The notes under the pieces: model-generated
What the model was told of the DNA's origin: nothing
What the model saw: the letters and a program-made list of their open reading frames with translations, nothing else
Database searches by the model: none
Assembly (NCBI GenBank): GCA_000306725.1
Contig: CP003083.1
Coordinates: 1-64,000 of the forward strand
Origin: Methanolobus psychrophilus R15
GTDB lineage: Archaea; Halobacteriota; Methanosarcinia; Methanosarcinales; Methanosarcinaceae
Reading direction: 5' to 3'
Length of the DNA stretch: 64,000 nucleotides
Part shown: one piece after another, positions 1 through 21,703 of the stretch
Layout of the letters: the number at the start of each line of letters is the position of its first letter
Numbering within the stretch: position 1 is the stretch's first letter
Made by a program: the position numbers and the translations under genes

Positions 1-489
1 CAAGCACCTCATCCTAATTTTCAAGCAAGTCAGAAAAGGTTTTTCCTGTATAAAACGTTCTCGTAATTGAAAATGTTTTCACACGAGGAATATTTTGATT
101 ACAGTTCGGTTATTGGTGTTGAATCCTTCAAGTAGTACTCAAAAAGTTCTTTTCCCCATTGAAGCGCACTTTCACTCGAACAAATAACTCGTTTATTATC
201 CGAAACACCTTGATGTGTCAATAATTTCAACATTATGCTATAGTCATTGATTGAAATAGATAAGAAGTCAAAACGATTTGGATATATACTTAAGTTAATG
301 TTTGAATTTTGGCTGAGGACCTTGAATTTTTCGGGATTGTCCTGCATGAGTTTTTCAGAAAGCTCTTTCGAGATGATTATGGATATATTCACTTTATTTG
401 CTATTAACTCGGAAAATGTTTGTTCAAAATGAGGAAATACAAATGAACTCATCGTGAATACAGATTCTGACATTTCAGCTTCTTCAGTA

Positions 490-493
490 AACT
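490..493. repeat. AACT target-site duplication (partner at 1633-1636)
   Basis: The four bases AACT occur immediately outside both ends of the IS5-type element. Removing one copy restores the reading frame of the interrupted regulator, which independently fixes the element's ends. Confidence 0.85.
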
Positions 494-1632
494 GAGGATT
501 TCGATAAACTAGACCCACATTAGACTAAAATATAAATATTAGATAAATAAATTAAGTATCATGGATGATTTGACTGATTTTGCTCTTAATGAAGAATATA
601 AACGCCTTCAATCCGTTGGAGACAAGCTTGCAGAAATAGAATCACTTATTGATTGGAAACCGTTTCGTCCAATTCTGGAATCAATGTACAAGAACAGAAC
701 AGCTTCAGGCGGCAGGCCTGAAGCTGATGTTATTGTGATGTTTAAAATGCTTGTTCTACAACAGTGGCATGGTCTTTCTGATGCTGAACTTGAAAGACAG
801 TGTATTGACAGAATATCCTTTAGGAAATTTCTGGGGTTTCCTGGATATGTTCCAGACAGTACAACTGTCTGGTCATTTAGAAAGAGAATTAGCGATAATG
901 GAAAAGAGAAAGAAATATGGGACGAGATGCAAAAACAGCTTAATGCTCTTGGATTGAAGATCAAAAAAGGGATGATCCAGGATGCCACATTCATCCACTC
1001 CAACCCTGGACATGCTAAAGCTGATGAACCTCGTGGAAAGGATGCTAAAACAGCTAGAAGCAAAGATGGAACCTGGGCAAAAAAAGGTGGCAAATCTCAT
1101 TTTGGCTACAAGCTTCATACAATTATTGATAAGGAATATGAACTGATCAGAAGATTTGAAACAACAACTGCATCAGTACATGATTCACAGGTAGATCTAT
1201 CTGAAGTGGGTGAAGTAGTCTACCGTGACAAAGGATACTTTGGAGCAGTTGCAAAGGGTTTTGCAGCAACAATGCAAAGAGCTGTAAGAGGACATCCATT
1301 AGGAATAGCGGAGATTCTCAGAAATGAGCGGATAAGTGTGCAGCGAGTTACATGTGAAAGAGTCTATGCAGTAGCAAAGGAAGTGTTCAAAGCAGGAAAA
1401 GTGCTTCTTACAACAGTAAAAAGAGTAAATGTGAAGATGTTGATGACAGCTTTTTCTTTTAATCTTCATCAATTGAGAACACTGAAAAGGAAGGGAACTG
1501 TCTAGGATAGCGTAAGCTATCCTAAAATTAAGGTGAAAAGGAACAAAAACATAAAAATCTTGGATGAAGTGGGACGAGTAACAACTTGGATTTATCCGAT
1601 ACTTAAAAAAAGAGGGGTTAATCTGAATCCTC
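494..1632 (+). mobile_element. Complete IS5-type insertion sequence, 1139 bp
   Basis: The ends are GAGGATT at 494 and AATCCTC at 1632, with imperfect terminal inverted repeats of about 16 bp (left reads GAGGATTTCGATAAAC; right, reversed, GAGGATTCAGATTAAC). It carries one transposase gene at 561-1505 followed by a short hairpin (GGATAGC/GCTATCC at 1506-1523) that probably terminates it. A truncated copy lies at 33601-34635. Exact excision restores the host gene. Confidence 0.88.
561..1505 (+). CDS. IS5-family DDE transposase
   Basis: A 314-residue transposase. The N-terminal part (about residues 20-90) is the IS5-type DUF772 domain, with SDAELERQC. The DDE domain follows, with MIQDATF (first Asp), the basic GKDAKTARSKDGTWAKKGGKSH-type stretch and YRDKGYFG (second Asp), then the C-terminal glutamate region. 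It is full length and open. It would catalyse cut-and-paste transposition of the 494-1632 element. The copy at 33727-34635 differs at a few residues, such as TT versus TN near the C-terminus, so the two copies are close but not identical. Confidence 0.92.
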   Translation: MDDLTDFALNEEYKRLQSVGDKLAEIESLIDWKPFRPILESMYKNRTASGGRPEADVIVMFKMLVLQQWHGLSDAELERQCIDRISFRKFLGFPGYVPDSTTVWSFRKRISDNGKEKEIWDEMQKQLNALGLKIKKGMIQDATFIHSNPGHAKADEPRGKDAKTARSKDGTWAKKGGKSHFGYKLHTIIDKEYELIRRFETTTASVHDSQVDLSEVGEVVYRDKGYFGAVAKGFAATMQRAVRGHPLGIAEILRNERISVQRVTCERVYAVAKEVFKAGKVLLTTVKRVNVKMLMTAFSFNLHQLRTLKRKGTV

Positions 1633-2063
1633 AACTGTTTGTCCTCCTCGAATATCTCGTGTAAACCAATCTTAATTAAGTTGCATGGACCCAACTCGCT
1701 TATTCTGTTGAATAAATGTGAAGGGATGAAATCAAGCTTATGTGTCCCCCAATAAGAAATGTCGATATCAAGAACATGGGTTATATCAATAAGAGGAATC
1801 ATTTCCGTCGTTATGAGCTTTCCAAGAGTTGTTAATTCATATGTATCTTTATCGTGGGTTACAAGATAATGCTCTTCCACTACTCTTATTTGAGGAAGTA
1901 ATGCCTGCCTGTTCGTATCGAGTGACTTGAGAAGATAATCCATTTCCTGAGGTTCGTCTTTCAATAATAAAAGAGTATTCTTTCTTTTCTCAGAGGCAAA
2001 TATGACATCAAGTAGAGGTTTCTTCATGAAGACACACCCTATCTCCCCAATATGTTTGGACAT

Positions 2064-2382
2064 TACTACATATCAACTTCAGGGTATTTATGTCATTCCC
2101 TAAATTGTTAACAGTGTTAACTAATCTGTTACAATTGATTTGGACAAGCAATTCATAAACAGCAATTTCATAAAATATCATTTAAAAAGGAAGTCCCATA
2201 TTTCCTAAGCAGACACCTTGCATGCTCTCCATGATGAACTATTATTGGTCATGCAAAATTTACGTAACTTACATCGCAAACTGACGGGTATTTTTTGGTT
2301 TATTCTACTTCAATAACCGATTATTGTTTCCTAATGCTTTAACTGTTATTCTCGTGAGAGATTGTAGAAGGGAAGGATAAAT
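2064..2382. other. Intergenic stretch, no gene seen
   Basis: An AT-rich spacer between the divergent regulator copy A and the small gene at 2383. It must hold promoters for both. I see no repeat, hairpin or open frame that stands out. Confidence 0.5.
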
Positions 2383-2790
2383 GTGTTAGGTGAAATGATA
2401 GGTGAATCTGAAGGTAAAACAACAAGCATCAGAATACTTCCATCCAAGGGAAATGAACCCACATATGAAGTTACAGAAGAGTTTAAGGGTAATCTCTTGG
2501 GTATTGAAATTTCGGATATGACAACATACAAGTATGTCATTAAGGAAGGAGGGATAATGTATGGCAAAGGACAAGGAGTCACTCTGACAAAGGAAGGAGA
2601 TGCGCTTACATACACAATTTCAGGAGTAGGAGGGTTCAAAGATAAAGGTCCTGCAGTCAGTTTTCGTGGAGCTTTATATTATCGGACATCATCTCCTAAA
2701 TTTTCTCGCCTCAATGGCATTGCTGTCATCTTTGAGTATGAAGCTGATGAAAATGGAAATTCACATGCTAAACAATGGGAATGGAAATAA
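2383..2790 (+). CDS. Conserved hypothetical small protein (EMIGES..GKTTSIRILP family)
   Basis: A 135-residue soluble protein, rich in Gly and beta-prone, with no signal peptide. It has the pattern GEMIGES-x-GKTTSIRILP near the N-terminus, YGKGQGVTLTKEG in the middle and a C-terminus ending EYEADENGN...KQWEWK. I recognise it as a widespread conserved hypothetical of archaea and some bacteria, but I know no function. The GTG at 2383 has GGAAGG 7 bases upstream; an ATG at 2395 is an alternative. Decayed relatives of its first third occur at 9560 and 11801, on either side of the GSDH gene, so the family was once multicopy in this region. Confidence 0.75.
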   Translation: MLGEMIGESEGKTTSIRILPSKGNEPTYEVTEEFKGNLLGIEISDMTTYKYVIKEGGIMYGKGQGVTLTKEGDALTYTISGVGGFKDKGPAVSFRGALYYRTSSPKFSRLNGIAVIFEYEADENGNSHAKQWEWK

Positions 2791-2907
2791 TCAATTCGAA
2801 ATCATCCGACAGCAACAGTTAATCTCTGATCAAAAAATAGAGACAATCGGGATGGTTGAGTTGAGACTTAAATGATATTGGGAAATATTTAGGTCTCGTA
2901 AGGAAAA

Positions 2908-2942
2908 AGGCGCTTTAAAGCGTGATGGTTTGACAGGCGCCT
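2908..2942 (-). terminator. Probable terminator of the LysE-family gene
   Basis: Read on the minus strand, AGGCGC pairs with GCGCCT across a 23-base loop and is followed by a run of T. It lies just past the stop of the minus-strand gene at 2966. Confidence 0.45.
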
Positions 2943-2965
2943 CTCCTTGTCTTTAATATATTGAC

Positions 2966-3637
2966 TTAATCTATTAAATCAATCAGAGCGGCAACTTCAT
3001 TGTGGCTTAGAATAAAAAAGAATCCTATGGTTATTAGAAAGCTGCCGCAGATGTAAAGCAGTCTCTGGTGAGTACGGCGTGACACAAGCTGCTTACCTCT
3101 GGCGAATGTTGAAGATACAGATACGAGGAACCCAAGGTCTGCCAGCCAGTGCCCGAGGATAAAGGCAAATACTGCAAGAACGCCTGCGAGATACTGCTGC
3201 ATGATGATTGCGGTGCCTGCTGTTAACCACCAGAAGAGAAAGGTGGGATTCAGTGCTGATGTGAGGATGCCTGCTGAGACGGGACCGCTGGAAATATCGA
3301 GCTTACCGGCGGCGGCATTAATGTCCATTGTCAGTGCCTCTTTTGCTTTGCGGATAATGATCATCCCGAAAAGCGCCATGGCTAAACCGCCTATTATAGC
3401 TATGTTCGATAGCATATCCTTTACAATGAGGGTGGATGCACCCATGATGATAAGCAGGATGAGAGTAGTTTCTACAATAGAGTGACCGCCAAAGACATAA
3501 AATCCGGTCTTCCATCCTTTTTTCAGAGATATGCTAACCGTTGCAAGCATCATGGGACCCGGCACAAGTGCGGCAGAGACACCTATAGTGAATCCGAGAA
3601 TGAAAGCCTGCGCCAAGTCTATTATATTCATCACCAT
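2966..3637 (-). CDS. LysE/RhtB-family amino-acid exporter
   Basis: A 223-residue integral membrane protein with about six hydrophobic segments, the usual size for the LysE/RhtB superfamily. The N-terminal segment carries the characteristic GVSAALVPGPMMLA motif (Pro-Gly-Pro), and a middle segment has ALNPTFLFWWLTAG. It would sit in the cytoplasmic membrane and export a small amino acid or related metabolite; the substrate cannot be read from sequence. Starts at 3637 or 3631 are both possible; GGTGACC precedes the former. It stands alone between regulator copies, so no pathway is suggested by its neighbours. Confidence 0.88.
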   Translation of the reverse strand: MVMNIIDLAQAFILGFTIGVSAALVPGPMMLATVSISLKKGWKTGFYVFGGHSIVETTLILLIIMGASTLIVKDMLSNIAIIGGLAMALFGMIIIRKAKEALTMDINAAAGKLDISSGPVSAGILTSALNPTFLFWWLTAGTAIIMQQYLAGVLAVFAFILGHWLADLGFLVSVSSTFARGKQLVSRRTHQRLLYICGSFLITIGFFFILSHNEVAALIDLID

Positions 3638-3716
3638 GAGAGGTCACCATGTTAAATATAAAATATAATATATATAGCAGAATCATTAAAAGGAAATGAA
3701 TTCTGAATAACTTATT

Positions 3717-4502
3717 TCAAATTACTGTAATCTGTGTTGAATTTTCCAGGTAGTACTCAAATAGTTCTCTTCCCCATTCTACTGCTGCAGGACTTATGCA
3801 TATCAATTGCTTGTAATCATATGTGCCTTCAGCAGTTAACAGTCTCAACGCAAGGCATGAATCATTTACTTTTAGTGAAAATAAATGCATCTTGTGGGGA
3901 TATAGGTATAGTGTAACTTGCTTATTATTCACGAGTTTTCTCAATTTATCAAAATTGTCTCTTGTAACTTTGCTATAAAAGCATGAATCAAAGATGAGTG
4001 ATAGATGAACTCCTTCATCAATCAAATCTTCAAATAAATTAAAAAAGGTTGGTTGGAGGCCAGCTGCTATCATCCTAAATGATTCTGAGTTTCTTGAAAT
4101 TTGATGGATCTCTCTATTGCACTCGAAGATGTCCACAGGACTGGGTTGAAATAAAGTGCAAGAATCAATTTCATACAGTTTTTTTAGTAAATGTGGAGGA
4201 GCAAAATCTAATCTCCGTTTGCACCAGTAACCATCAGCGAAATTCACAAACTTTTCCATGCACAAAAGAGGCTTCAATTTCTCAATAACCAGATTTCCTA
4301 GAAGAGTTAACCTATAAACATTATTTTCCTTGGTTACTAAATAGTATTTTTCTAGCAATTCTATGTTAAAAAGAAGTTCGTCTTTTGTGGTCTCTAGGGA
4401 TTTTCTAAGTTCATCACAGTCTTTTGGACCGTTATCTAAAAGCAAAAGTAAACGGCTAGAGTTTTCCGATGCAATCACTATTTGAAGTGATCTATCTCCC
4501 AT
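3717..4502 (-). CDS. FilR1/DUF1724 winged-helix transcriptional regulator (copy B)
   Basis: A 261-residue protein with an N-terminal winged helix (about residues 5-75, with LLLLDNGPKDCDELRKSLE), a short linker, and the FilR1 domain (about 125-258) ending EWGRELFEYYLENSTQI. It is the most diverged of the family members here: it lacks the ASEKRK motif (ASENSSR instead). The family binds DNA as metal-free ArsR-like dimers and, in Methanosarcina, includes the Msr regulators of methylotrophic methyltransferase genes. No such target is in the window. It is intact and transcribed away from LysE. Confidence 0.85.
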   Translation of the reverse strand: MGDRSLQIVIASENSSRLLLLLDNGPKDCDELRKSLETTKDELLFNIELLEKYYLVTKENNVYRLTLLGNLVIEKLKPLLCMEKFVNFADGYWCKRRLDFAPPHLLKKLYEIDSCTLFQPSPVDIFECNREIHQISRNSESFRMIAAGLQPTFFNLFEDLIDEGVHLSLIFDSCFYSKVTRDNFDKLRKLVNNKQVTLYLYPHKMHLFSLKVNDSCLALRLLTAEGTYDYKQLICISPAAVEWGRELFEYYLENSTQITVI

Positions 4503-4685
4503 TTAGCTTGCCTCCTTTTTATGAACGGTTTAGTAAAGAACATATTGACTAGAATATTTTCCAGTAGAAATAAGTTTTACAAATGTCGTTTCCCCATTCA
4601 ATGAAAATAAAGGTTCTTTTGTATTTATAGATTACCAATATAACATTAGTTTAATGGTATAATCTCAAAATTTACTTGCTCTAAA

Positions 4686-5444
4686 TTAAAAATCCCTTAA
4701 TGCAGTTGAATCTTCAAGGTAATATTCAAATATTTGCTTTCCCCATTCAAGGGAATCAAGGTCAGAACAGAGAATATGTTTATTGTCGTAATCTCCACTA
4801 TTTGTTAAAGGGCTCATCCTCAGGTAGTGATCATTAATTGCAAAGGACATGAAGTTCATCTCTTTTGAGTAAACAAATAAATGAAAGATGTCACTTTTTA
4901 TAATCTCTTGAAATTGATTCTTTGATTCACTACTAATATCTCTGGAGATTATGACATAGACGTTTACATTGTTTTTGATCAGTTCGGAGAACACGGCATT
5001 AAAAGACGGATGAAAATATGAGGTAACTATAAACAGGGATTTAGATGTTTTCGATGCCTCACAGAATATTTTAAAGTCTTCAAACATTTCAATAATAGGA
5101 GGATTTGTCATTTCACATTTCGCGACCTTGCTCATCAAATCAAAAAAGTGAGGTGGGATTTGATTTAAAATATGATCATTCTCTAGATCATAGTCAACGG
5201 TCTCTAATAAAGAACCTATTGTATCAACTATAAGTTTTCCTATAATTGTTAATTTGTAGACACTACCTAGTTGGCTGATAAGTTGATTGTCTTCCAATGC
5301 TTTAATCTGCAAAAGTAAGTCATGTCTACTGGTTTTGAATGAGTTAAGAATGGTTTCTCTTTCTTTGGGACCATCCTTTAATAGCAAAAGTACACTTTTT
5401 CTTTGTTCTGATGCAAGTATAATATCAAATAAAGAGTCCTTCAT
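4686..5444 (-). CDS. FilR1/DUF1724 winged-helix transcriptional regulator (copy C)
   Basis: A 252-residue regulator reading MKDSLFDIILASEQRKSVLLLL from the ATG at 5444. An in-frame TTG at 5462 is the only alternative, and the ATG aligns with copies A and D. The winged helix covers about residues 5-72. The FilR1 domain covers about 120-250 and ends EWGKQIFEYYLEDSTAL. It lies in the same orientation as copies B and D, with gaps of about 100-180 bp, so these are probably separate transcripts. Effector and target are unknown. Confidence 0.85.
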   Translation of the reverse strand: MKDSLFDIILASEQRKSVLLLLKDGPKERETILNSFKTSRHDLLLQIKALEDNQLISQLGSVYKLTIIGKLIVDTIGSLLETVDYDLENDHILNQIPPHFFDLMSKVAKCEMTNPPIIEMFEDFKIFCEASKTSKSLFIVTSYFHPSFNAVFSELIKNNVNVYVIISRDISSESKNQFQEIIKSDIFHLFVYSKEMNFMSFAINDHYLRMSPLTNSGDYDNKHILCSDLDSLEWGKQIFEYYLEDSTALRDF

Positions 5445-5543
5445 TGCCCATATTGTCCCCAATAATATTACGTATGGACCTGCTCCTACAAATACTAACT
5501 CACAATGAAAAGTAGATTGAAATTGTAGTACAGATAAAAATCA

Positions 5544-6338
5544 TCATTGATGTTCAATTTCAGTAATAAGAATGGAATCCTTTAGATAATACTCATAAAG
5601 TTCTTTTCCCCATTTGAGCGCATCCTCACTTGAACATATGATTCTCTTAGTGTCATAGCCACCCTCCAGTGTAAATGTTCTTAGCATAACTGCGTGGTCT
5701 GTAAGTGTGAATGACGTAAAAGGGAAATTAGAAGGGTATCTATATAGTTCTATATTTGGGTTTTGTGAAATATATTGTAAGTCCTCACTTTTTTCATGCA
5801 AAAGTTTTTGGTATAAATCATCTGATACGATGAACGATGCGTTCACATTTAATTCCGTCATCTCAGTGAATAATTTCTCAAAGTGAGGAAACATAAATGA
5901 AGTTACTGTGCATATAAACTTTGTCCTTTTAGCTTCCTCAACAAAGGTTTCATCTTCATCAAAGATTTCACTTATTTGAACAGTGACTGAAGTACATGAT
6001 TCTAATTCATTAATTCTTTTTAGTAAATGAGGTGGAATAAAATGAAGATCGTGGGATCCCCAGTACTCTATATTGTTGCTAAAAACATCAATATTCTTTA
6101 GAGCCAGTGCAATATCATCAACAATAAGTTTCCCAAGGTGTGTCAGGATGCAAGTATCCCTTTCGTTCGTTATCAAGTAATGATCTTCAAGTATCCTTAT
6201 TTGTGGCAGGAGAGCTTGTCTTGATGTATCTAAAGATTTAAGGAGATATTCCATATCTTTTGGTCCATTCTGCAGCAATAGGAGAACTTCCTTTCTCTTC
6301 TCTGATGCAAACATCACATGAAGTAATGGTTTCTTCAT
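5544..6338 (-). CDS. FilR1/DUF1724 winged-helix transcriptional regulator (copy D)
   Basis: A 264-residue intact regulator, the closest relative of the IS-interrupted copy A: MKKPLLHVMFASEKRKEVLLLL at the start and WGKELYEYYLKDSILITEI near the end. The winged helix covers about residues 5-72 and the FilR1 domain about 125-260, with TSFMFPHFEK where A has SSFVFPHFEQ. It served as the template that shows the exact joint in copy A. It may have taken over A's role, but that is inference. Confidence 0.87.
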   Translation of the reverse strand: MKKPLLHVMFASEKRKEVLLLLQNGPKDMEYLLKSLDTSRQALLPQIRILEDHYLITNERDTCILTHLGKLIVDDIALALKNIDVFSNNIEYWGSHDLHFIPPHLLKRINELESCTSVTVQISEIFDEDETFVEEAKRTKFICTVTSFMFPHFEKLFTEMTELNVNASFIVSDDLYQKLLHEKSEDLQYISQNPNIELYRYPSNFPFTSFTLTDHAVMLRTFTLEGGYDTKRIICSSEDALKWGKELYEYYLKDSILITEIEHQ

Positions 6339-6523
6339 ACTTCCACAGCCCCTTTATTAATTATGTGAGTAGTGATATTTAAGGTAAACCTCAAGATTTT
6401 CTACTGTTAGTCAGCAGGATATTTAGCTCGTAGAAATCCTTTTAATCAGAACTCATTAAAATACTTTCATGAATATCAAAAAAGTATATAGTATATGAGA
6501 ACAGGTTAAATGTAGGTGATAAA

Positions 6524-6580
6524 ATGACAGAGCCAGAAAAGGAAATTGAAAAGAACTATTCATACAATAAGCAACAACTA
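6524..6580 (+). pseudogene. 5' end of an unidentified gene, cut off by an IS630-type element
   Basis: An ATG at 6524, preceded by a good ribosome site (AGGTGAT, 4 bases upstream) and a TATA-like stretch near 6486-6495, opens a frame reading MTEPEKEIEKNYSYNKQQ. The frame runs straight into the IS630-type end at 6581 and stops. The rest of the gene is not on the other side of the element, so sequence was lost. The product is not recognisable from 18 residues. Confidence 0.55.
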
Positions 6581-7677
6581 TAGTCCCTAACTCAACAAAT
6601 CACACTTTTTATTTGTGCATTAAATGTTTCTATCCATTTTTTTGCAAACGATAATGAGCTCTCTATCCTCATAAATTCCATTTTGATAATATTCCTCAAA
6701 TGTTCTTTTGATTTGACAAATTTGACTGACACTTCTCTTTTGATTGTTTTCCAGACAAATTCTACTGGATTTAGATCAGGTGAATAAGGTGGTAGGAACA
6801 CAAGTGTTATTTTTAAATCTCTCGCTTTACTTATCGTTTTCTTTGCATGATGCGATCTTGCATTATCGAGAACAAGAATTATTCTTTTCCCTGGGTTTTG
6901 CTCTACAATTTTTTCCAGGAATTCACACACATCTTCTGTTTTTGAGCTTTTCATAAAATCAATGATACTGTTCCCGTTGATCGAATAAAACGCAAATGCA
7001 TTTGCTTTAACGTAATCCGTATTTTTTATTATCAACGGTTTTTTAAATGACCATAATCTTTGCGTGTTTGCTTTTGTTTGTGGTGAAGATTCATCCAGAA
7101 AACCTATGATATACTGCTCATCTTGACCAATATTTTTTGGAATTGCTTCGGTTAGTTTTTTTTAAGATCTCTTCAGCGTTTTTAGGTCTTCTGTAGTCAA
7201 GGGGATATGGCTTTGAGTGATACATGTTAAAACTGTGAAGTATAACTCCTACTTGTTTCTCTGAATATTCTACGCCATATTTTTCCTTTATTAACTTCCA
7301 GACTTCTCTTGTAGTCCAGTAATCCTTATTTTCCAACAAAGCTCTTAATTCCTTTTTTTGTTCATCAGTAAGTTTGGATTTCCTACCTCCGCCAAAATTT
7401 GGCATTAAGGCGGCATAGCCGCCTTTATTCCAACTTTCTTGCCAGCAATATCCTGTTTTCTTAGTCACTCCTACTTTAGTAGCAGCTTCTTCTACAGAAT
7501 CCCCTAAATATCTAAATTTAACAAAATAGAGCCTTTTCAACACTCTTGAATTGTTCTCGTGTGTGATCAAATCGTTAATCTCGTCGAGAATTACCTTTCG
7601 GTCAATCAGAATTTGTTCTTTCCCCGCCATAAGATAAGATAAACATTAATACGTGTAGTAAGTTGCGTTGAACACTA
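6581..7677 (-). mobile_element. IS630-type insertion sequence, about 1097 bp
   Basis: The element is bounded by TA dinucleotides (6579-6580 and 7678-7679), as expected for the IS630/Tc1 superfamily. Both ends begin TAGT inside the TA, and imperfect inverted repeats extend about 27 bp (shared AAC, CAAC and ACAC blocks). It carries a two-frame transposase. Partial copies occur at 34636-35466 and 12408-12526. The flanks do not belong to one gene: the right flank is regulator copy E and the left flank is a different, plus-strand gene. Confidence 0.82.
6592..7630 (-). CDS. IS630-family transposase in two overlapping frames
   Basis: Frame 1 (7630 to about 7118) encodes the helix-turn-helix part, about 155 residues, with the TNTDE-type motif region KLTDEQKKELRALL. 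Frame 2 (to 6592) encodes the DDE catalytic part with GFLDESS, VLDNARSHHAK and SPDLNPVEFVWK, which holds all three acidic residues. The frames meet at a run of eight A (minus strand, about 7150-7157). Reading past one A at the run (+1, equivalent to -2) changes frame and gives continuous EEILKKKLTEAIP. The same run is present in the copy at 34636-35466. That favours a programmed shift, as is known in IS630 elements, over a random mutation, but common ancestry of one broken copy is not excluded. Confidence 0.8.
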
Positions 7678-8109
7678 TAAATAGATGGAATTAGATTTCA
7701 TTGCACTTTCAACAAAATCTTTATTGATTTCAAACATCTCAATGACATTAGGTTTTAAAACCTTACATTTCTGAAGTTCGTTAATTCTTTCAAGGAGATG
7801 AGATGGAATGAAACCAAGGTTATGAGCCCCCCAATAATCAATATCCATATCCAAAACTTCAGTAGTGCTCACAAGCGGGGCCATTTCATTGACAATTAAT
7901 TTTCCAATAGTTGTCAGCTCATAGGTATCTTTACTATGGTTAACAAGATAATGTTCTTCAAGCATCCTTATCTGTGGAAGCAATGATTGTCTATTTGTCT
8001 TTAAGAGTCGAAGTAGATCTTCCATTTCTTTGGCTTCATCCTGTAATAACAGGAGAGTTTCCTTTCTCTTTTCGGACATAAAGAGAATATCAATTAACAT
8101 TTTTTTCAT
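7678..8109 (-). pseudogene. FilR1/DUF1724 regulator truncated by the IS630-type element (copy E)
   Basis: Starts MKKMLIDILFMSEKRKETLLLL at 8109 and follows the family for about 142 residues: the whole winged helix and the beginning of the FilR1 domain, to SAMKSNSIY. It then hits the element end and stops within it. The missing C-terminal half is not on the far side of the element. The DNA-binding domain is intact, so a short DNA-binding protein could still be made; without the FilR1 domain it would lack its effector part. Confidence 0.8.
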
Positions 8110-8600: not shown

Positions 8601-8872
8601 ACAGGTGAAACACTTCGCATGATCAACGAAGGCGCTGCAATGATACGCACTAAAGGGGAAGAAGGGACTGGTGATGTCAGTAAGGCTGTAAAACACATGA
8701 AGGAGATAAAGGGCTATATACGGTCACTTGCCAGAATGACACATGAGGAACTAATCCTTGCAGCACGCGAGATAGAAGCTCCCATTGAGCTGGTAGTGGA
8801 AACTGCTTAACTGCAGAGACTTCCGGTTGTGAACTTTGCCGCAGGCAGAGTGGCTGCACCGCAGATGCAGTT
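8601..8872 (+). pseudogene. pdxS: pdxS fragment (pyridoxal 5'-phosphate synthase lyase subunit)
   Basis: The frame reads [23 protein letters not shown], then [13 protein letters not shown], then [15 protein letters not shown]. After an in-frame TAA at 8808 it continues [21 protein letters not shown]. These match the middle and rear of PdxS, whose family reads [13 protein letters not shown]...VRHM...APYELV...[26 protein letters not shown]. The N-terminal half, with the catalytic lysines, and the C-terminal end are missing. Stop and deletion show it is dead. PdxS normally makes PLP with PdxT; a working copy must be elsewhere. Confidence 0.8.
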
Positions 8873-8935: not shown

Positions 8936-8947
8936 AAGGGTCTCATT

Positions 8948-9243
8948 TCAATCCGAGTGGATATCAAATAGGAAAGTGTTACCTTTCCCAAGGTTATTTT
9001 CCACCCAAATGTTACCACCGTGCAGCTCGACAAACCGCTTGGCCAAAGATAATCCAATCCTATGCCGCCATATTTTCTTGTTATTGAACCGTCTATCTGG
9101 ATGAAAGGGTCAAATATCTTATCGATATTCTCTTTAGCAATACCAATACCATTGTTGTGAACAGAAAATATAATTGTATTTTCTCTCTGCTCAGCTTCAA
9201 CTTTTACTGTGCTTTGAGCACCTGGAAGCTTAATGGAGTTTTA
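8948..9243 (-). pseudogene. Histidine-kinase ATPase-domain fragment
   Basis: On the minus strand the sequence reads TIIFSVHNNGIGIAKENIDKIF, then FIQIDGSITRKYGGIGL, then after a frameshift LAKRFVELHGGNIWVENN and GKGNTFLFDIHSD-stop. These are the G1, F and G2 boxes and the tail of a HATPase_c domain. The start of the kinase is missing and the frame is broken in the G2 box, so it is a relic. The pattern is close to the sensor kinase at 50274-52409 (YQVDGSSTRKYGGNGLGL). Confidence 0.8.
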
Positions 9244-9278: not shown

Positions 9279-9297
9279 ATAGGTTTTCTACAGAGCC
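9279..9297. repeat. Solo end of a GGCTCTGTAGAAA-type MITE
   Basis: Reversed, this reads GGCTCTGTAGAAAACCTAT, identical to the left ends of the elements at 29172 and 50125. No partner end is seen within 200 bp, so it is a decayed or truncated copy. Confidence 0.55.
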
Positions 9298-9303
9298 TAA
9301 ATG

Positions 9304-9559
9304 CGTTTAAGTTAAATAAGAATAAAACCCACTTTATAAATGTGGAGCAAGGAAATGCGCTACAGCGGGAAGTGGAGTACGCGAGAGACATTGATAATAA
9401 AGGTTCCTATATTGAAAGGTCTGGTAGTAAGGCGAATGACCCAGAAGAGTGGAAAGGATAGAGATTGCCTGAACTAAAAAAGATGGTGCCTCTTATTTTG
9501 CATTGTAGACAACACTGCCCCAAGACAAGAGAGTATGAAATAAACAGAAGGTATGGGCA
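9304..9559 (+). other. Unrecognised decayed reading frame
   Basis: From about 9318 a frame without a start reads HFINVEQGNALQREVEYARD and, after further sequence, DPEEWKG before a TAG, then continues RLPELKKMV. The codon pattern looks like old coding sequence but I cannot name the family. Confidence 0.25.
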
Positions 9560-9757
9560 ATGTATGAAGAAGTGATTAACGAATTTCAAGGAAAGGCCAT
9601 TAGCATGAGGATTGTCGAGCCTTTCGAAATTGGTCTGAAGCTCGAAGCGACGAGTCAGACAACCGTCCACTTACCTGGGACCGAGGCGGAAGGGCTGGGA
9701 ACCGGAATCGGCGATGGTTATTCAAGTATATCTGGTAAAGAGGTGATGAGGTCATGA
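9560..9757 (+). pseudogene. Remnant related to the small conserved protein at 2383
   Basis: The frame reads YEEVINEFQGKAISMRIVEP, followed by KLEATSQTT, which parallels GEMIGESEGKTTSIRILP and YEVTEEFKG of the 2383 gene. After about 45 residues similarity is lost and the frame runs 4 bases into the next gene. It could be read as an upstream ORF coupled to the GSDH gene, but a decayed paralogue fits better. Confidence 0.5.
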
Positions 9758-11754
9758 GATTGGAACTGCTCAAGGTAGGAGTGGTACTTCTTTTCTGTAT
9801 CACCCTCGCAATCACCCCTGTCCAGGCACAGCCTCAGACAGAAGACATTGAGATAAGAGATTTTGCCTTCCAGCCCGAAGCGATCACGATTGAACCCGGA
9901 ACAACCGTTGTCTGGACGAATTATGACACTGTCCAGCATACGGCCACCAGTACCGAGGATATCTTTGACTCCGGTCTCTTTGGAGAGGATGAAACATTCG
10001 AGCATACCTTTACGGAACCGGGCACTTACGAATACTTCTGCACAGTCCATCCGTTCATGGAGGGTGAAGTAGTCGTTTCGGAAGAAGAGCCCGGACAGGT
10101 TGAACCGGGCGTTGTGGTGACGGATCAGCCGATAGTTAACGATACGGTAACAGTCGATGAAGTGGTCAGCGACGGCCCCGGCTGGATCGTCATCCATGCC
10201 GACGAGGAAGATGCTCCAGGTCTGGTCATCGGCTACAGCCCTGTAGATGACGGAGTGAATGAGAACATCACTGTCGAGATCGAGAACGCGACCGAGATCC
10301 TCCATGCCATGCTGCATATCGATGCGGACGAGATTGGTGTCTATGAGTTTCCGGGCCCTGACATCCCGGCGGAAGTCGATGGGGAAGTGGTGAACGTGCC
10401 ATTCAACGTCACCGAGATTCCGATGGAGGAACAGGAGCAGGTGGGCCTTGATCTCGTTGCCGAGGGATTCACTGCACCGGTTGGGCTCACTTCACCCGAT
10501 GATGGAAGCGGGAGGCTCTTTGTGGTCGATCAGGCCGGCGAGATCAGGATCATTGATGCAAATGGCACCCTGCTTGAGGAGCCCTTCCTGAATCTCACGA
10601 ATCAGATCATCGAGCTGCGAGAGGATTTCGATGAGCGCGGGCTGCTTGGTCTTGCCTTCCACCCGAACTTCACCGAGAACGGCAGGTTCTTTGTCTACTA
10701 CAGCGCCCCGCTCAGAGAAGGGGCGCCGGAGGATTGGAACCACACCAGCCGGATATCAGAGTTCAATGTGTCGGAAGACGATGAGAACCGGGCGAATCCC
10801 GACTCCGAGCGGGTGATCTTGGAGGTCGACCAGCCCCAGTTCAACCATGACGCCGGTTCGATCGCCTTCGGCCCTGACGGCTACCTCTACATACCGCTCG
10901 GTGACGGCGGCGGTGGCAACGACGTCGGTGTAGGACATCCGCCGGAAGGCAACGGGCAGAACACAACCACGCTACTTGGAAGCATTCTGCGGATCGATAT
11001 CGACGGCGAGGAGCCCTACGGTATCCCGGAGGACAACCCATTTGTCGATGATGACGAGGTGCTGGACGAGATCTACGCCTACGGATTGCGCAATCCATGG
11101 CGCATGACGTTTGATGCGGGAGGGGAGAACCATCTGTTTGCTGCCGATGCCGGACAGGAATTCTGGGAGTCGGTGAACATCATCGAAGCTGGCGGCAACT
11201 ATGGCTGGAACCTTAAAGAGGGAAGCCATGCCTTCGACCCCGAGAACCCGCTCGATACTCCTGAAGAGGTGCCCGAAGTCGGTCTCCGCGGCGAGCCCTT
11301 GATCGACCCGATCATCGAGTATCCGAACGCGAAACAGTCCGATGGTCTCGGGCAGGTTGTTGTCGGCGGATATGTCTACCGCGGCAGTGCCATTCCGGAA
11401 TTCGAGGGGCGCTACATCTTCGCCGAATGGAACCGGGCGGATTCTCAAGGCGACGGTATAATCTTCATCGCGACGCCGCCAGAGGATAACGTCACAGAAG
11501 AGATGTGGGAGTTTACGGAACTAGGGGTGGCCCCCAACCAGACGATTGGCTCCTACATCCTGGCAATTGGACAGGACGCGGACCGTGAACTCTATGTCCT
11601 GACCACACAGAATCGCGGACCGACCGGAGAAACGGGCAGAGTTTACCGCCTCGCTCCGCCTCCCGAAGAATCCGAACCGTTCCAAGCACCTGGATTTGGC
11701 AAGTTTACGACTATGTTCGTCATTGCAACTGCATATGTCATAGGAAAAAGTTGA
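9754..11754 (+). CDS. Secreted cupredoxin - DUF7282-like - glucose/sorbosone dehydrogenase fusion protein
   Basis: A 666-residue extracytoplasmic protein. Residues 1-25 form a signal peptide. Residues 27-108 are a plastocyanin-like domain with a full type 1 copper site (His62, Cys96, His99, Met102). About 119-225 resembles DUF7282 of halophilic archaea (VVVTDQPIVNDTVTVDEV...GWIVIHADE). About 228-640 is a GSDH/PQQ-type beta-propeller (VAEGFTAPVGLTSPDDGSGRL, RGLLGLAFHPNF, GPDGYLYIPLGDGG, YGLRNPWRM, GNYGWN). The C-terminus PGFGKFTTMFVIATAYVIGKS-like tail recalls a PGF-CTERM anchor with a shortened basic end. It may oxidise a sugar or other alcohol at the cell surface and pass electrons to copper; substrate and cofactor are inference. 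ATG 9754 has AGAGGTGATGAG upstream. It is far more GC-rich and acidic than its neighbours, which suggests transfer. Confidence 0.87.
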   Translation: MRLELLKVGVVLLFCITLAITPVQAQPQTEDIEIRDFAFQPEAITIEPGTTVVWTNYDTVQHTATSTEDIFDSGLFGEDETFEHTFTEPGTYEYFCTVHPFMEGEVVVSEEEPGQVEPGVVVTDQPIVNDTVTVDEVVSDGPGWIVIHADEEDAPGLVIGYSPVDDGVNENITVEIENATEILHAMLHIDADEIGVYEFPGPDIPAEVDGEVVNVPFNVTEIPMEEQEQVGLDLVAEGFTAPVGLTSPDDGSGRLFVVDQAGEIRIIDANGTLLEEPFLNLTNQIIELREDFDERGLLGLAFHPNFTENGRFFVYYSAPLREGAPEDWNHTSRISEFNVSEDDENRANPDSERVILEVDQPQFNHDAGSIAFGPDGYLYIPLGDGGGGNDVGVGHPPEGNGQNTTTLLGSILRIDIDGEEPYGIPEDNPFVDDDEVLDEIYAYGLRNPWRMTFDAGGENHLFAADAGQEFWESVNIIEAGGNYGWNLKEGSHAFDPENPLDTPEEVPEVGLRGEPLIDPIIEYPNAKQSDGLGQVVVGGYVYRGSAIPEFEGRYIFAEWNRADSQGDGIIFIATPPEDNVTEEMWEFTELGVAPNQTIGSYILAIGQDADRELYVLTTQNRGPTGETGRVYRLAPPPEESEPFQAPGFGKFTTMFVIATAYVIGKS

Positions 11755-11800
11755 CTTGTAGGGAGTTGTAGGTGGAATATAAAGAAGAGTGGAGAATTAA

Positions 11801-11902
11801 TATGTGTTTAGAGGAAAGACCATTGGCATGAGAATAATCGAAATTCTCGAGAACGGCCTGAATTATGAGAACAATTGCCTTGAAAAGTGTTATTCCTCAT
11901 AA
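11801..11902 (+). pseudogene. Second remnant related to the small conserved protein at 2383
   Basis: A 33-codon frame reads YVFRGKTIGMRIIEILENGL and ends YSS-stop. It parallels the remnant before the GSDH gene (FQGKAISMRIVEPFEIGLKL) at both protein and DNA level. The two scraps flank the GSDH gene in direct orientation. Confidence 0.45.
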
Positions 11903-12139: not shown

Positions 12140-12400
12140 TCACAGGCTTTCTTCTATCTCTTTGGTGATGGGGATTGGCATCAGACCACTGCGGCAATGG
12201 TGATGAAGTGGAGGACGATATAAGTCAACATCTCCATTTGACAGATCAAAAATAGTCCCATGTAAGGCCCTGAACTGATCTGTAGTCCTGTCATCAAGCT
12301 CTGCATCGAACTCAACATATTCCGCTCCACGCTGACGATACCGATACACAGTTGTGTTGGTGGCGACATCTGCAGTGAAAGTCTTGGCAACTTACAGCTT
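12140..12400 (-). pseudogene. Phage minor head protein fragment (SPP1 gp7 / Mu F-like C-terminus)
   Basis: The frame reads VYRYRQRGAEYVEFDAELDD, RTTDQFRALHGTIFDLSNGD and YRPPLHHHCRSGLMPI. This is the pattern of the gp7-like head morphogenesis domain: E-x-D...RT...C/R-ALHG...F...PP-H-x-CRS. Only the C-terminal part is present; upstream the sequence runs into an IS630-type remnant. The usual Cys before RALHG is replaced by Phe. It is a provirus relic. Confidence 0.65.
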
Positions 12401-12407
12401 TGTATCG

Positions 12408-12526
12408 TTCTCGTGTGATCAAATCGTTAATCTCGTCGAGAGTTACCCTTCGGTCAATCAGAATTTGTTCTTTCCCCGCCATAAGATAAGATAAACATTA
12501 ATACGTGTAGTAAGTTGCGTAACACT
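12408..12526 (-). mobile_element. Terminal remnant of the IS630-type element
   Basis: Nearly identical to the 5' end of the element at 6581-7677: the terminal repeat, the ribosome site and the first about 26 codons of the transposase, with a TG loss in GTGTGTGAT and a TG loss near the tip. The rest is deleted. Its inner edge abuts the phage head-protein scrap. Confidence 0.85.
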
Positions 12527-12591
12527 AGTACAGGACTACCAGATTGCTCCCACGAAGAATATTTGTCAACACCAGACTCTTAAGATAGTGT

Positions 12592-15399: not shown

Positions 15400-15777
15400 A
15401 TCAAATACACTAATCAGCGGATAGAGATCCTGCAGTTCCTCAAGGAATTCGACGGGCATCCTACAGTTGATGATGTGTACGAAGGCGTGAGGAAAAAACT
15501 GACCACGATCAGCAAAGCCACTGTATACAGCAATCTGAGGTTCCTAGCTGAAAAGGGCCTTATAAAAGAAGTGAACATCAAGGGAGTTTCCAGGTTTGAG
15601 GCAAATCTTGTACCGCACCACCACATCATCTGTATTGGATGTGGTAAGATATCTGATTACGAATCAGAAGAACTGACAGATTACTCGCTGAAGATAGCAA
15701 GTGATATAGAAGACTTTGAAGTAGAGACCACAGATACGAACTTTTACGGATTCTGTAAAGAATGTATGGAGGAATAA
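15400..15777 (+). CDS. Fur-family metal-dependent repressor (PerR-like), no AUG at the expected start
   Basis: The family N-terminus is readable as KYTNQRIEILQFLKEFDGHP, VDDVYEGVRKKL, ISKATVYSNLRFLAEKGLI (recognition helix), EVNIKGVSRFEAN, then metal ligands HHHIICIGCGKI and a C-terminal FCKEC. So both CxxC pairs of a structural zinc site and the histidines of the regulatory site are present. The frame is open from 15325 but has no ATG, GTG or TTG before GTG 15475, which would remove the first DNA-binding helix. An AUC at 15400, just before KYTNQR, is the expected position. It lies immediately before the peroxiredoxin gene with a 1-base gap, so peroxide control of the island is likely. Confidence 0.8.
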   Translation: MKYTNQRIEILQFLKEFDGHPTVDDVYEGVRKKLTTISKATVYSNLRFLAEKGLIKEVNIKGVSRFEANLVPHHHIICIGCGKISDYESEELTDYSLKIASDIEDFEVETTDTNFYGFCKECMEE

Positions 15778-15778
15778 T

Positions 15779-16450
15779 ATGGACGAAATAGTAAAAATGC
15801 CGCTCATAGGCGATGATGCACCGACGTTTACAGCAAAGACGACCATGGGAGAGATCAATTTCCCCAAGGACTACAAAGGCAAATGGGTCATCCTTTTCAG
15901 CCACCCGGCAGACTTCACGCCTGTGTGTACTACGGAGTTCATGACATTTGCAAGCATGCAGGGGGATTTCAAAGCACTAAATTGTGAGCTCATCGGCCTG
16001 TCCATCGATAGCATCTACGCCCACATTGCATGGCTTCGTACCATCAAGGAAAAGATAGAGTATAAGGGGATGAAAAATGTAGAGGTGACTTTCCCTGTTA
16101 TCGAAGACCTCAAGATGACCGTTGCAAAGAAATTCGGCATGCTCCAGCCAGGCGCTTCCGACACCCAGGCTGTAAGGGCAGTGTTCTTCATTGATCCGAA
16201 AGCCAAGATCCGGGCCATACTCTACTACCCGCTCTCAAACGGAAGGAACATGGACGAGGTCATGAGACTGCTTACAGCCATGCAGAAGTCTGACGCAGAG
16301 GGTGTTGCAACACCGGCTAACTGGCAGCCAGGGGAAGATGTCATCATCCCGCCACCCGGATCATACGGAGTCGCAAAGGAGAGAGTGGAGGCCAAGGATG
16401 CAAACACATACTGCCTTGACTGGTTCATGTGCTTCAGGAAACAATCCTAA
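15779..16450 (+). CDS. Peroxiredoxin, archaeal Prx6 type
   Basis: A 223-residue thiol peroxidase reducing H2O2 and organic peroxides. The peroxidatic Cys50 sits in HPADFTPVCTTEF, and the C-terminal extension has Cys212 and Cys218 (YCLDWFMC), the arrangement of archaeal Prx6 enzymes. The Arg in QAVRAVFFIDP completes the active site. The ATG at 15779 follows the Fur stop directly, so the two genes are co-transcribed. Cytoplasmic; the reductant is probably a thioredoxin system. Confidence 0.93.
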   Translation: MDEIVKMPLIGDDAPTFTAKTTMGEINFPKDYKGKWVILFSHPADFTPVCTTEFMTFASMQGDFKALNCELIGLSIDSIYAHIAWLRTIKEKIEYKGMKNVEVTFPVIEDLKMTVAKKFGMLQPGASDTQAVRAVFFIDPKAKIRAILYYPLSNGRNMDEVMRLLTAMQKSDAEGVATPANWQPGEDVIIPPPGSYGVAKERVEAKDANTYCLDWFMCFRKQS

Positions 16451-16482
16451 ATACCGTATCATTGAAAAAACAGGTGGCAAAA

Positions 16483-16713
16483 ATGGGAACTAAAGGAATC
16501 CAATTACTCGAAAATCTCGGAGTAGACGTCAATGATCTGATAGAATCACTCAACAAAGTTCTTGCAGATGAATGGCTTGCATATTACCAGTACTGGGTAG
16601 GAGCGCAGGTCATCAAGAGCCCTATGAAGGAGGAGGCTGCAGCCGAACTTATACAGCATGCTGCTGATGAGCTCAGGCACGCGGACATGAAAAGTGATGC
16701 GACGTTCTTCTAG
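16483..16713 (+). pseudogene. Truncated ferritin-like (DpsA/bacterioferritin-type) gene
   Basis: Starts MGTKGIQLLENLGVDVNDL after AGGTGG and follows the ferritin-like fold through two helices (LADEWLAYYQYWVGAQV, EEAAAELIQHAADELRHADM), including the Glu and E/H-type metal ligands. After ADM the family reading ends abruptly in KSDATFF-stop at about residue 76, where a full protein has about 170 residues. No continuation is seen in other frames before katG. The four-helix ferroxidase site is therefore incomplete. It lies 32 bp after the peroxiredoxin gene and may be a relic of an iron-storage gene. Confidence 0.75.
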
Positions 16714-16757
16714 CAATCCTTCAAGTCCCCCATTGTCAACAAGATCAATCGATATAA

Positions 16758-18983
<2,226 letters not shown>

Positions 18984-19393
18984 TCGTAACATCGACTCCC
19001 TCCCATATAATGGCTGAGATCATTTGATCATAAGGTTCCCTTCAACATCGTGTGGGTAATCGAATCCACAGGGAACCTTTCCCTACTGCGAGCATTTAGA
19101 GCAAATGATCTATCAGCCTTTGCATTTTTTTTATATAACGCAATATACTCTTAGAAAATCCTATTTCCCTTCAGACAGAATAAGAGTTGCTTAGTATCTT
19201 TTTCAGGAAACATGCATTAACTTAGACAGGCTTCAAGTGGAATATTATTTTAAGACGCAGAATAGTCTCAGGGAGAAGCAGGTGGGAGAAACCGCAGAGC
19301 TTGTGATCGAGAAACTAAAGATGAAAAAGTTGGTGTAGAAGATTAGAATCAAATGCAAACTTATTTTAAAAACTCGAGCCCCTGTTACAGCAG
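18984..19393. other. Spacer with terminator and an unidentified coding scrap
   Basis: After the katG terminator, a plus-strand frame at about 19190-19338 without a start reads NLDRLQVEYYFKTQNSLREK and ends VIEKLKMKKLV-stop. It looks like a gene tail, but I do not recognise the family. Nothing else is seen. Confidence 0.3.
19032..19079 (+). terminator. Terminator after katG
   Basis: AAGGTTCCC and GGGAACCTT form the base of a hairpin. An inner TGTGG/CCACA pair strengthens it, and T-rich sequence follows. It lies 48 bases past the katG stop. Confidence 0.6.
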
Positions 19394-19897
19394 CTAGTTT
19401 ATTACATGGATATCTTTCAGATTATGAAGCATCTTGTGGAATTCCTCATGTTTGCCTTCGCCGATTTTCTCGATCTCTACAATCTGAAACGATTTTTGCA
19501 TCTCCTCTTGAACTTTCCCGGCAAGATGTTTATCTGCCAATGGAAAAAGGATATTGTCTTCTTTGTTGATATGCTGAGTCAAAAGTTCAATATAGTCTCT
19601 TGAGCTCTTGACTACCGTAGATAGAGCTTCAGAATCCATATTTGCCGAGACTGCTTTAGCTATCGTATCAACATCTCTTCTTCCATGTTCATGCTCTTCC
19701 AGAAGAGAATCTATGATTTCTGTTGAGCCGGGAACATTTGCCCTTCTCATTATAGGAAAAAGATGTTCTTCTTCTTTTGTGTGGTGGCATTTGTCGACAA
19801 AAACTTTCAAGAATTCAACCACGTTCTCAAGATGCTCATGTTCAATTTCCTTTCGGGATTCTATTTTCGTACACATCCCATCCATTATTTTAAGCAT
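19394..19897 (-). CDS. Hemerythrin-like HHE-domain protein, N-terminus out of frame by one G
   Basis: The open frame from ATG 19897 gives 167 residues with His/Glu ligands typical of HHE proteins (IEHEHLENVV, DKCHHTKEEEHLFP, LLEEHEHGRRD, LTQHINKEDNILFPLA). They bind a di-iron centre for O2, NO or iron handling. Family N-terminal sequence continues upstream as TKPTDDLKEEHHAVKL, which includes the first His ligand, but has no start in frame. An ATG at 19959 would start it if the following G run (19953-19957, minus strand) had six G instead of five. So either the gene is frameshifted or the base is a sequencing error. It stands near KatG and fits an oxygen- or NO-stress role. Confidence 0.85.
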   Translation of the reverse strand: MLKIMDGMCTKIESRKEIEHEHLENVVEFLKVFVDKCHHTKEEEHLFPIMRRANVPGSTEIIDSLLEEHEHGRRDVDTIAKAVSANMDSEALSTVVKSSRDYIELLTQHINKEDNILFPLADKHLAGKVQEEMQKSFQIVEIEKIGEGKHEEFHKMLHNLKDIHVIN

Positions 19898-20228: not shown

Positions 20229-20729
20229 ATGACCGCAAAAATAAAGAAAATACTGATAGCTACGGATGGCTCTGAGAACGTAAAGAATGCAGTTCACTGG
20301 GGCATAGGACTGGGAAAAGCGAACGGAGCTAATGTCACTGCTCTTTATGCTCTAACACCCACAGGATTCCGTCATTCAATGCGCGGTGATATGTGGGTTA
20401 AAGAATATTATAACTATTTGAGGGAAGAAGGAAAAAAAGCTATTGATTATGTAGTTGATATTGGTCTCCATGAAGAGGTAAAAGTGGACGCCATAATTAT
20501 CAAAGATAAAAAACCTGTAGATGCAATTATCGATTTCGCAGCAGAGAACGATATCGACCTTATTATAATGGGAACACAAGGAAAAACAGGGGTCGAACGT
20601 GCCTTACTTGGCAGTGTTGCAGAAAATGTTGTACGATACGCAAAAAAACCAGTGCTTGTCATTCCAAGTAGTGAAAGCAAAGAGGCTGCCCCCATCAAGG
20701 AGACCCCGTTTAATGCTGCAGGATTTTAA
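20229..20729 (+). CDS. Universal stress protein UspA family (first copy)
   Basis: A 166-residue Rossmann-like protein: KKILIATDGSENVKNAV at the N-terminus and the ATP-binding signature G-T-x-G-x9-G-S (MGTQGKTGVERALLGS) near 132-152. It is therefore of the ATP-binding class. The C-terminal tail (ESKEAAPIKETPFNAAGF) overlaps the next gene's start by 17 bases, which implies translational coupling to the DUF1538 gene. The 3' two thirds are inside the 649-bp tandem duplication. It is likely a regulatory partner of the membrane proteins that follow, but its role is unproved. Confidence 0.9.
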   Translation: MTAKIKKILIATDGSENVKNAVHWGIGLGKANGANVTALYALTPTGFRHSMRGDMWVKEYYNYLREEGKKAIDYVVDIGLHEEVKVDAIIIKDKKPVDAIIDFAAENDIDLIIMGTQGKTGVERALLGSVAENVVRYAKKPVLVIPSSESKEAAPIKETPFNAAGF

Positions 20730-21054
20730 AGAAACATTCAAGGAGGTAGTCCAGGCTGTATTGCCCTTGACAGCAGCTGTGCTCCTGATCATGGTGGTCA
20801 TTGGCCTTAATTCCGGTATGTTCCTCTCTTTCTTTACAGGGGCTATAATGGTTATAGCAGGCATGGTTTTTTTCCTCATGGGCGTCAAGCTGGGAATGTT
20901 GCCTATCGGAGAATCTATCGGCTCCGAACTTCCAAAGCACAATTCTTTGATCTTCATTGTGGGAGTCGCCTTTTTACTATCTTTCATGGCGACACTTGCA
21001 GAACCTGATGTAAGGGTGCTGAGCACAATGATCGATTCGGTGTCCGAGAATGGT
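20406..21054 (+). repeat. 649-bp tandem duplication, unit 1
   Basis: Bases 20406-21054 are repeated at 21055-21703 with two substitutions noticed by eye (A to G in the CTTTTTACT and GCACAATG stretches). The unit runs from within usp to within the DUF1538 gene. Both ends carry a short GAAT..TAT similarity, which suggests slippage or illegitimate recombination. The high identity indicates a recent event, or an assembly artefact. Confidence 0.9.
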
Positions 21055-21378
21055 TATTATAACTATTTGAGGGAAGAAGGAAAAAAAGCTATTGATTATG
21101 TAGTTGATATTGGTCTCCATGAAGAGGTAAAAGTGGACGCCATAATTATCAAAGATAAAAAACCTGTAGATGCAATTATCGATTTCGCAGCAGAGAACGA
21201 TATCGACCTTATTATAATGGGAACACAAGGAAAAACAGGGGTCGAACGTGCCTTACTTGGCAGTGTTGCAGAAAATGTTGTACGATACGCAAAAAAACCA
21301 GTGCTTGTCATTCCAAGTAGTGAAAGCAAAGAGGCTGCCCCCATCAAGGAGACCCCGTTTAATGCTGCAGGATTTTAA
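20713..21378 (+). CDS. Chimeric DUF1538 N-terminus - UspA C-terminus protein
   Basis: The ATG at 20713 (MLQDFKETFKEVVQAVLPL) opens a DUF1538 membrane protein with three hydrophobic segments to about residue 114 (MIDSVSENG). It then passes in frame into the usp copy (YYNYLREEGKKAIDYV) to give a 221-residue fusion. The product would tether the last two thirds of an UspA domain, including the G-T-x-G-x9-G-S ATP motif but lacking the first beta strand, to half a transporter. It arose at the duplication junction. Whether it folds or is expressed is unknown. Its 3' end overlaps the next start in the same 17-base way as the original pair. Confidence 0.85.
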   Translation: MLQDFKETFKEVVQAVLPLTAAVLLIMVVIGLNSGMFLSFFTGAIMVIAGMVFFLMGVKLGMLPIGESIGSELPKHNSLIFIVGVAFLLSFMATLAEPDVRVLSTMIDSVSENGYYNYLREEGKKAIDYVVDIGLHEEVKVDAIIIKDKKPVDAIIDFAAENDIDLIIMGTQGKTGVERALLGSVAENVVRYAKKPVLVIPSSESKEAAPIKETPFNAAGF

Positions 21379-21703
21379 AGAAACATTCAAGGAGGTAGTC
21401 CAGGCTGTATTGCCCTTGACAGCAGCTGTGCTCCTGATCATGGTGGTCATTGGCCTTAATTCCGGTATGTTCCTCTCTTTCTTTACAGGGGCTATAATGG
21501 TTATAGCAGGCATGGTTTTTTTCCTCATGGGCGTCAAGCTGGGAATGTTGCCTATCGGAGAATCTATCGGCTCCGAACTTCCAAAGCACAATTCTTTGAT
21601 CTTCATTGTGGGAGTCGCCTTTTTGCTATCTTTCATGGCGACACTTGCAGAACCTGATGTAAGGGTGCTGAGCACGATGATCGATTCGGTGTCCGAGAAT
21701 GGT
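21055..21703 (+). repeat. 649-bp tandem duplication, unit 2
   Basis: The second unit of the duplication described for 20406-21054. It restores a complete DUF1538 gene beginning at 21362. Confidence 0.9.

Follow-up and report, generated by a model that had tools for sequence, protein, structure and literature searches.

The first 64 kb of the Methanolobus psychrophilus R15 genome (a single contig of 3,072,769 bp, CP003083.1), hereafter the window, harbours a gene predicted to join a blue copper domain to a sugar dehydrogenase-type propeller. This raises the question of how a strictly anaerobic methanogen acquired such a gene, and of what the encoded protein may do at the cell surface.

Domain organisation and export

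The open reading frame at positions 9754-11754 of the forward strand, on which all parts of the gene described below lie, starts with ATG and is intact over 666 codons. It encodes a predicted secreted cupredoxin - DUF7282 - GSDH protein of 666 aa, with a signal peptide (residues 1-25; 9754-9828) whose cleavage after VQA was judged by eye and which forms a helix at residues 2-19 in the structural model. The signal peptide is followed by a cupredoxin domain (residues 31-108; 9844-10077), a DUF7282 domain (residues 120-219; 10111-10410), and a GSDH-type six-bladed propeller (residues 226-636; 10429-11661). The union of these three domains in one protein, proposed in a sequence-only reading of this locus, was borne out by hmmscan against Pfam, in which all matches were above the cut-offs: GSDH (1.8e-38, residues 241-560), DUF7282 (1.4e-16, residues 120-219), Copper-bind PF00127 (3.3e-11), and Cupredoxin_1 PF13473 (2.9e-9), the last two covering residues 31-108 at best. 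The protein also possesses twelve N-glycosylation sequons.

At the C-terminus, a PGF at residue 646, a hydrophobic stretch and a GKS tail form a degenerate archaeosortase-type signal (11689-11751). The PGF-like tail of the sequence-only reading is visible as a pattern, but the PGF-CTERM models do not detect it in this protein. The orthologue in genome G274 carries a C-terminal PGF-CTERM motif above the Pfam cut-off. An archaeosortase gene, which the same reading had proposed to look for, is present in the R15 genome in the form of archaeosortase A. The surface redox module proposed earlier is supported.

The cupredoxin domain contains the complete His-Cys-His-Met ligand set of blue (type 1) copper proteins. 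The ligands are H62, C96, H99 and M102, exactly the positions named beforehand, and sit in an amicyanin-like CTVHPFM loop. Among the NCBIfam cupredoxin models, amicyanin (TIGR02657) scored best, with 49.2 bits against a cut-off of 110.2 and hence below equivalog level; the halocyanin model (TIGR03102) also missed its cut-off (35.7 against 93.8 bits). A complete type 1 site joined to such a propeller had been considered unusual for a strict anaerobe. For the copper site this argument is weaker than it appeared, since a second cupredoxin with the full ligand set is encoded in the same genome at 281302-281616 (G000; L003 1777-2196). Its neighbour is a His-Cys-His cupredoxin without the Met.

The full-length structural model has low confidence over the N-terminal 225 residues, and a separate model of residues 27-224 reached a pLDDT of only 63, so that the fold matches of this part are weak. 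They include, for the cupredoxin domain, the Nitrosopumilus purple cupredoxin 5fc9 (Z 8.0, 72 aligned residues, 38% identity) and plastocyanins. For DUF7282, the same low-confidence model matched the biofilm protein 7c7u (Z 9.3, rmsd 2.6, 85 aligned residues) and the large adhesion protein repeat 6xi3 (Z 8.0). The DUF7282 profile also matched 6xi3, with an E-value of 1.5e-4 that is the sum of four weak repeats. Judging from these models and profiles, DUF7282 is probably an Ig-like adhesin module or spacer.

Putative active site of the propeller

The GSDH profile PF07995 matched the propeller with 133.1 bits against a gathering score of 25, although the alignment reached only position 279 of the 332 in the model. 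AlphaFold2 predicted a six-bladed propeller, in which most blocks score over 80 pLDDT. The closest solved structure by fold is the human Hedgehog-interacting protein, HHIP (Z 43.7, 2.4 A, 349 residues), followed by soluble aldose sugar dehydrogenase, Asd (Z ~39), and sGDH (Z ~35). Among solved structures, HHIP also has the most similar sequence (E 4e-42).

The mechanism of sGDH requires His144 together with Arg228/Asn229, the latter two lying around the PQQ ketones (PMC6881810). The counterpart of the catalytic base His144 is H365 (10846-10848), which is kept in 67 of 67 homologues, and the counterparts of Arg228-Asn229 are R446-N447 (11089-11094), kept in 67/67 and 66/67 homologues, respectively. 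An Asd-type paralogue in the same genome has the catalytic His and the Arg-Asn too. The arginine pair that binds the PQQ carboxylates in Asd and sGDH (RxR; Arg406/Arg408) is absent, its site (S600-L603; 11551-11562) holding S600 and L603 instead, and the second arginine is retained in 22 of the 67 homologues. Judged by eye, the place of Lys377 may be taken by R561, which belongs to a conserved WNR. The search for pqqC gave no match in eight genomes; the positive control matched nowhere, and the result is thus not evidence of absence. PQQ synthesis was likewise not found in Methanosarcina barkeri (PMC6315138).

The loss of the RxR pair and the closeness to HHIP, which is reported to lack several PQQ-binding residues (PMC4133262), have to be weighed against the conserved His, Arg and Asn. 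The AA12 enzyme of Coprinopsis, CcPDH, also misses several canonical PQQ residues, and is nevertheless PQQ-dependent (PMC4133262). On this balance a dehydrogenase is favoured, for which PQQ is one possible cofactor.

Composition and phylogenetic origin

With a GC content of 56.2%, a GC3 of 65.2%, and a net charge of -0.153 per residue, the gene ranks first in both GC and GC3 and is the most acidic of the 43 ORFs of at least 150 aa in the window, whose medians are 45.3%, 48.9%, and -0.020. The earlier remark that its base composition and acidity differ from those of its neighbours is thus correct. The GSDH region is GC-richer than its own locus in nearly every methanogen checked, however, including the Methanoculleus, Methanoperedens-like, Methanotrichaceae, and G392 loci. 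The composition is therefore partly a property of the propeller, and was rejected as sole proof of transfer.

The distribution of the gene is patchy. An intact copy was found in one of the 27 species of the genus, namely in R15, and a frameshifted C-terminal remnant in two frames in one further species (G003). Orthologues of like GC and synteny in most methylotrophic methanogens would speak against a foreign origin; the gene is instead absent from most of them. The nearest propellers in the phylum are those of G331 (80% over the GSDH query), G274 (72%), and Methanoculleus (67-72%), and the family of G331 and G274 fits Methanocorpusculaceae, genus Methanocalculus. The G274 protein has the same order of cupredoxin, DUF7282, GSDH and PGF-CTERM (66% over 650 aa), whereas the G331 copy lost residues 40-212 through a 520-bp deletion with frameshift.

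In a tree of 67 propellers (support given as pairs), the window protein groups with G331 (100/99) inside a clade of Methanocalculus-like and Methanoculleus sequences (100/100), among the Methanomicrobiales. Ten sequences taken as haloarchaeal form a separate clade (100/100) at about 50% identity, with the window protein outside it. The naming of families f14, f19, f24, f25 and f37 as haloarchaea, of f20 g56 as Methanocalculus, and of f5 g25 as Methanoperedens-like was inferred from GC, composition, and kinship rank. A haloarchaeal source, suggested earlier from the resemblance to that group, is rejected on this topology, in which Methanocalculus-like and Methanoculleus sequences stand closest to the window protein. 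The foreign origin as such stands, given the rarity in the genus, the nested tree position, and the sequence junctions described below. Comparison of the sequences supports horizontal transfer into Methanolobus from the Methanomicrobiales side, probably from a Methanocalculus-like donor, the direction following from the nesting in the tree and the patchy presence in the genus. No matches were found in viral contigs.

Codon-level comparison with G274 indicates purifying selection (dN 0.25, dS 1.57, dN/dS ~0.16), which puts the gene well beyond a chance finding. This signal, as well as the intact ligands and catalytic residues, may mostly reflect selection before the transfer.

Insertion site and gene neighbourhood

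Sequence common to other Methanolobus genomes stops at 9297, just before the DNA similarity to G331, which extends from 9333 (420 bp ahead of the start codon) to 11697. At the downstream edge, the match to the G003 remnant reaches as far as 11778, and a repeat of R15's own genome starts at 11852. The minimal imported segment accordingly spans 9333-11778 on the forward strand, which makes it a cassette of about 2.45 kb, set in surroundings rich in IS elements. An IS630-type element lies upstream (6592-7677, reverse strand), and a 128-bp fragment of the same element, 94% identical to 7546-7677, lies downstream (12400-12527). A 51-bp direct repeat flanks the gene (9589-9639 and 11812-11862, 75% identical), and a similar leader is found upstream of the G331 copy. 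No Rfam family matched an RNA element upstream of the gene.

The sequence on the upstream side is pieced together from remnants of genes. A conserved stretch of about 265 bp (8604-8868) reads as a pdxS fragment, recognised by eye, and 8942-9242 resembles the PAS-kinase region of a related genome. Several paralogues of a FilR1-like (PF08350) regulator, intact and broken, are present among IS elements at 99-8109.

No conserved gene neighbours were found among the homologous loci examined (Methanocalculus-like, Methanoculleus). In R15, a peroxide-defence cluster (15475-19897) comprising genes for a Fur-like regulator, an AhpC-type peroxiredoxin, a ferritin-like protein, KatG and a hemerythrin is located 4-8 kb downstream. 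An IS605 transposase gene and a membrane protein gene at 12644 lie in between, and there is no shared operon. The peroxide-defence genes suggest exposure to oxidants. The katG gene (16785-18983) is the second GC-richest of the 43 ORFs, and may also have been acquired. Further downstream, a tandem duplication of 649 bp (20406-21703, 99.7% identical) covers a UspA-like ORF together with the first part of an ORF for a membrane protein; it is either a recent event or an assembly artefact. The window also contains a 1200-aa ORF of the PAS - HisKA - REC kinase type (25041-28643). An internal start site was mapped in R15 at position 26,651 within Mpsy_0031, a kinase of this type (PMC5378194).

Recurrence of cupredoxin-GSDH fusions

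The fusion had been regarded as unusual for an anaerobe. This claim has to be softened, because among the loci examined, to which the following counts refer, such fusions are common in the Methanotrichaceae and Methanoperedens-like homologues. The cupredoxin is N-terminal to GSDH in a Desulfobacterales contig as well as in twelve out of fifteen loci of Methanotrichaceae-like and four out of five of Methanoperedens-like type. It is C-terminal in an Anaerolineae contig, in a second copy of a Methanoculleus, and in an f17 genome, where two cupredoxins are present. Such opposite orders are expected if both domains work together. Fusion with DUF7282 was detected only in the window protein and G274 of this set. 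In G392 (L124 7505-10929), three adjacent genes encoding GSDH, cupredoxin-fasciclin and fasciclin-DUF7282 correspond to the window protein in split form.

The Methanoperedens-like G073 copy runs on into CxxCH (heme-c) motifs of the cytochrome c type. Two giant Methanoperedens-like ORFs (L116 7217-11845, 1542 aa; L117 4872-10694, 1940 aa) combine cupredoxin-GSDH with CHRD, Ig-like, and heme-c modules.

No description of this recurrence across methane-cycle archaea was found in the literature searched. GSDH fusions as such are already known, and the surprise lies more in the recurrence than in the presence of the gene in one methanogen. A broader and speculative reading, which we consider rather doubtful, is that cupredoxin-GSDH fusions are recurrent, mobile extracellular redox enzymes of methanogens and methane-oxidising archaea, in which scavenged PQQ or a novel quinone cofactor would serve to couple the oxidation of carbinols at the surface to an export of electrons through copper. 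If true, this would constitute a cytochrome-free electron port in archaea.

Proposed function and alternatives

We propose that the gene, gained by horizontal transfer, encodes a dehydrogenase of the GSDH propeller superfamily that is secreted, retained at the surface, and equipped with its own outlet for electrons, a reading for which belief and doubt are evenly balanced. The propeller would bind Ca2+ and a quinone cofactor, either a PQQ-related compound or PQQ itself, the latter taken from neighbouring organisms, and would oxidise extracellular carbinols such as a sugar or an alcohol. Electrons would then hop singly to the copper domain of amicyanin type, and from there to a high-potential external acceptor, such as a copper protein, a cytochrome, Fe(III), humics, or an oxidant at an oxic edge. 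DUF7282 would be a spacer resembling adhesins or a module for binding to surfaces. Cupredoxin potentials have been argued to be too high for methanophenazine (PMC6315138). Outward electron flow is therefore likelier than inward flow, and for the same reason the benefit to the methanogen is not obvious.

A competing explanation, which we judge unlikely though still deserving serious weight, is that the propeller, like HHIP, serves in binding or adhesion instead of catalysis, anchoring the copper carrier with DUF7282 to polysaccharide, partner cells or mineral, and that redox activity belongs to the cupredoxin alone. The kinship with HHIP in sequence and fold, the lost PQQ-carboxylate arginines, the likeness of DUF7282 to biofilm-adhesin repeats, and the fasciclin domains in the G392 cluster all agree with it. 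In HHIP, however, the Arg-Asn of this clade is replaced by His-Asp, and H365, R446 and N447 are conserved almost without exception among the 67 homologues; AA12 enzymes, moreover, work without several of the canonical PQQ residues. That the gene is a useless recent acquisition heading for decay appears improbable. Its degenerate tail, the surrounding IS elements, the G003 remnant and the deletion and frameshift in G331 would fit such a passenger, but the 666-codon frame is intact, the dN/dS to G274 is low, and copper ligands and catalytic residues are in place, even if these may mostly date from before the transfer. Very improbable, in our view, is a role in copper or oxidant defence, by surface binding of Cu and removal of reducing sugars or radicals during exposure to oxygen, in alliance with the downstream peroxide-defence genes. 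R15 withstands 0.8 mM paraquat (PMC7961418), and those genes are close at hand, but the intervening genes, the lack of a shared operon, and the lack of conserved neighbours in the homologous loci examined argue against it.

The proposed dehydrogenase bears on a wider question. Cupredoxins and PQQ-domain proteins stood out in transcriptomes of methanogens that take electrons from partners, with cofactor and function unexplained (PMC6315138). Archaea in which an electron exchange with the surroundings is suspected repeatedly carry fusions of this kind. Both parts occurring in one polypeptide, in opposite orders by lineage and passed between methanogen orders, the question becomes testable with a single recombinant protein.

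Comparison with known systems

Amicyanin and methylamine dehydrogenase pair a cupredoxin with a quinoprotein from which it accepts electrons, as is proposed for the window protein. The amicyanin ligand loop is CTPHPFM, compared with CTVHPFM in the window protein, and the two partners are separate proteins, the enzyme carrying TTQ, whereas in the window protein the cupredoxin is fused to the GSDH propeller. Asd and sGDH (GSDH, PF07995; 3a9g, 2ism, 3das, 1cq1) share the six-bladed propeller, the catalytic His and the Arg-Asn (Z 34-39, 21-26% identity), but the window protein lacks their RxR pair and possesses the fused cupredoxin and DUF7282. HHIP, with His-Asp in place of Arg446-Asn447, differs in being an animal ligand-binding protein and no enzyme.

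Cupredoxin and PQQ-domain proteins are up-regulated in M. barkeri during DIET (PMC6315138). Similar to the window protein, they are putative methanogen surface redox proteins without a known cofactor source, but they are encoded by separate genes rather than in one polypeptide. The pyranose dehydrogenase CcPDH (AA8-AA12-CBM1; 6jt5), a PQQ domain fused to cytochrome b (PMC6881789), combines, like the enzyme proposed here, an extracellular propeller dehydrogenase with a one-electron carrier and a surface-binding module, and has a non-canonical PQQ site, as the window propeller would; its carrier, however, is a cytochrome b instead of a cupredoxin, and its propeller is 15% identical (Z 28).
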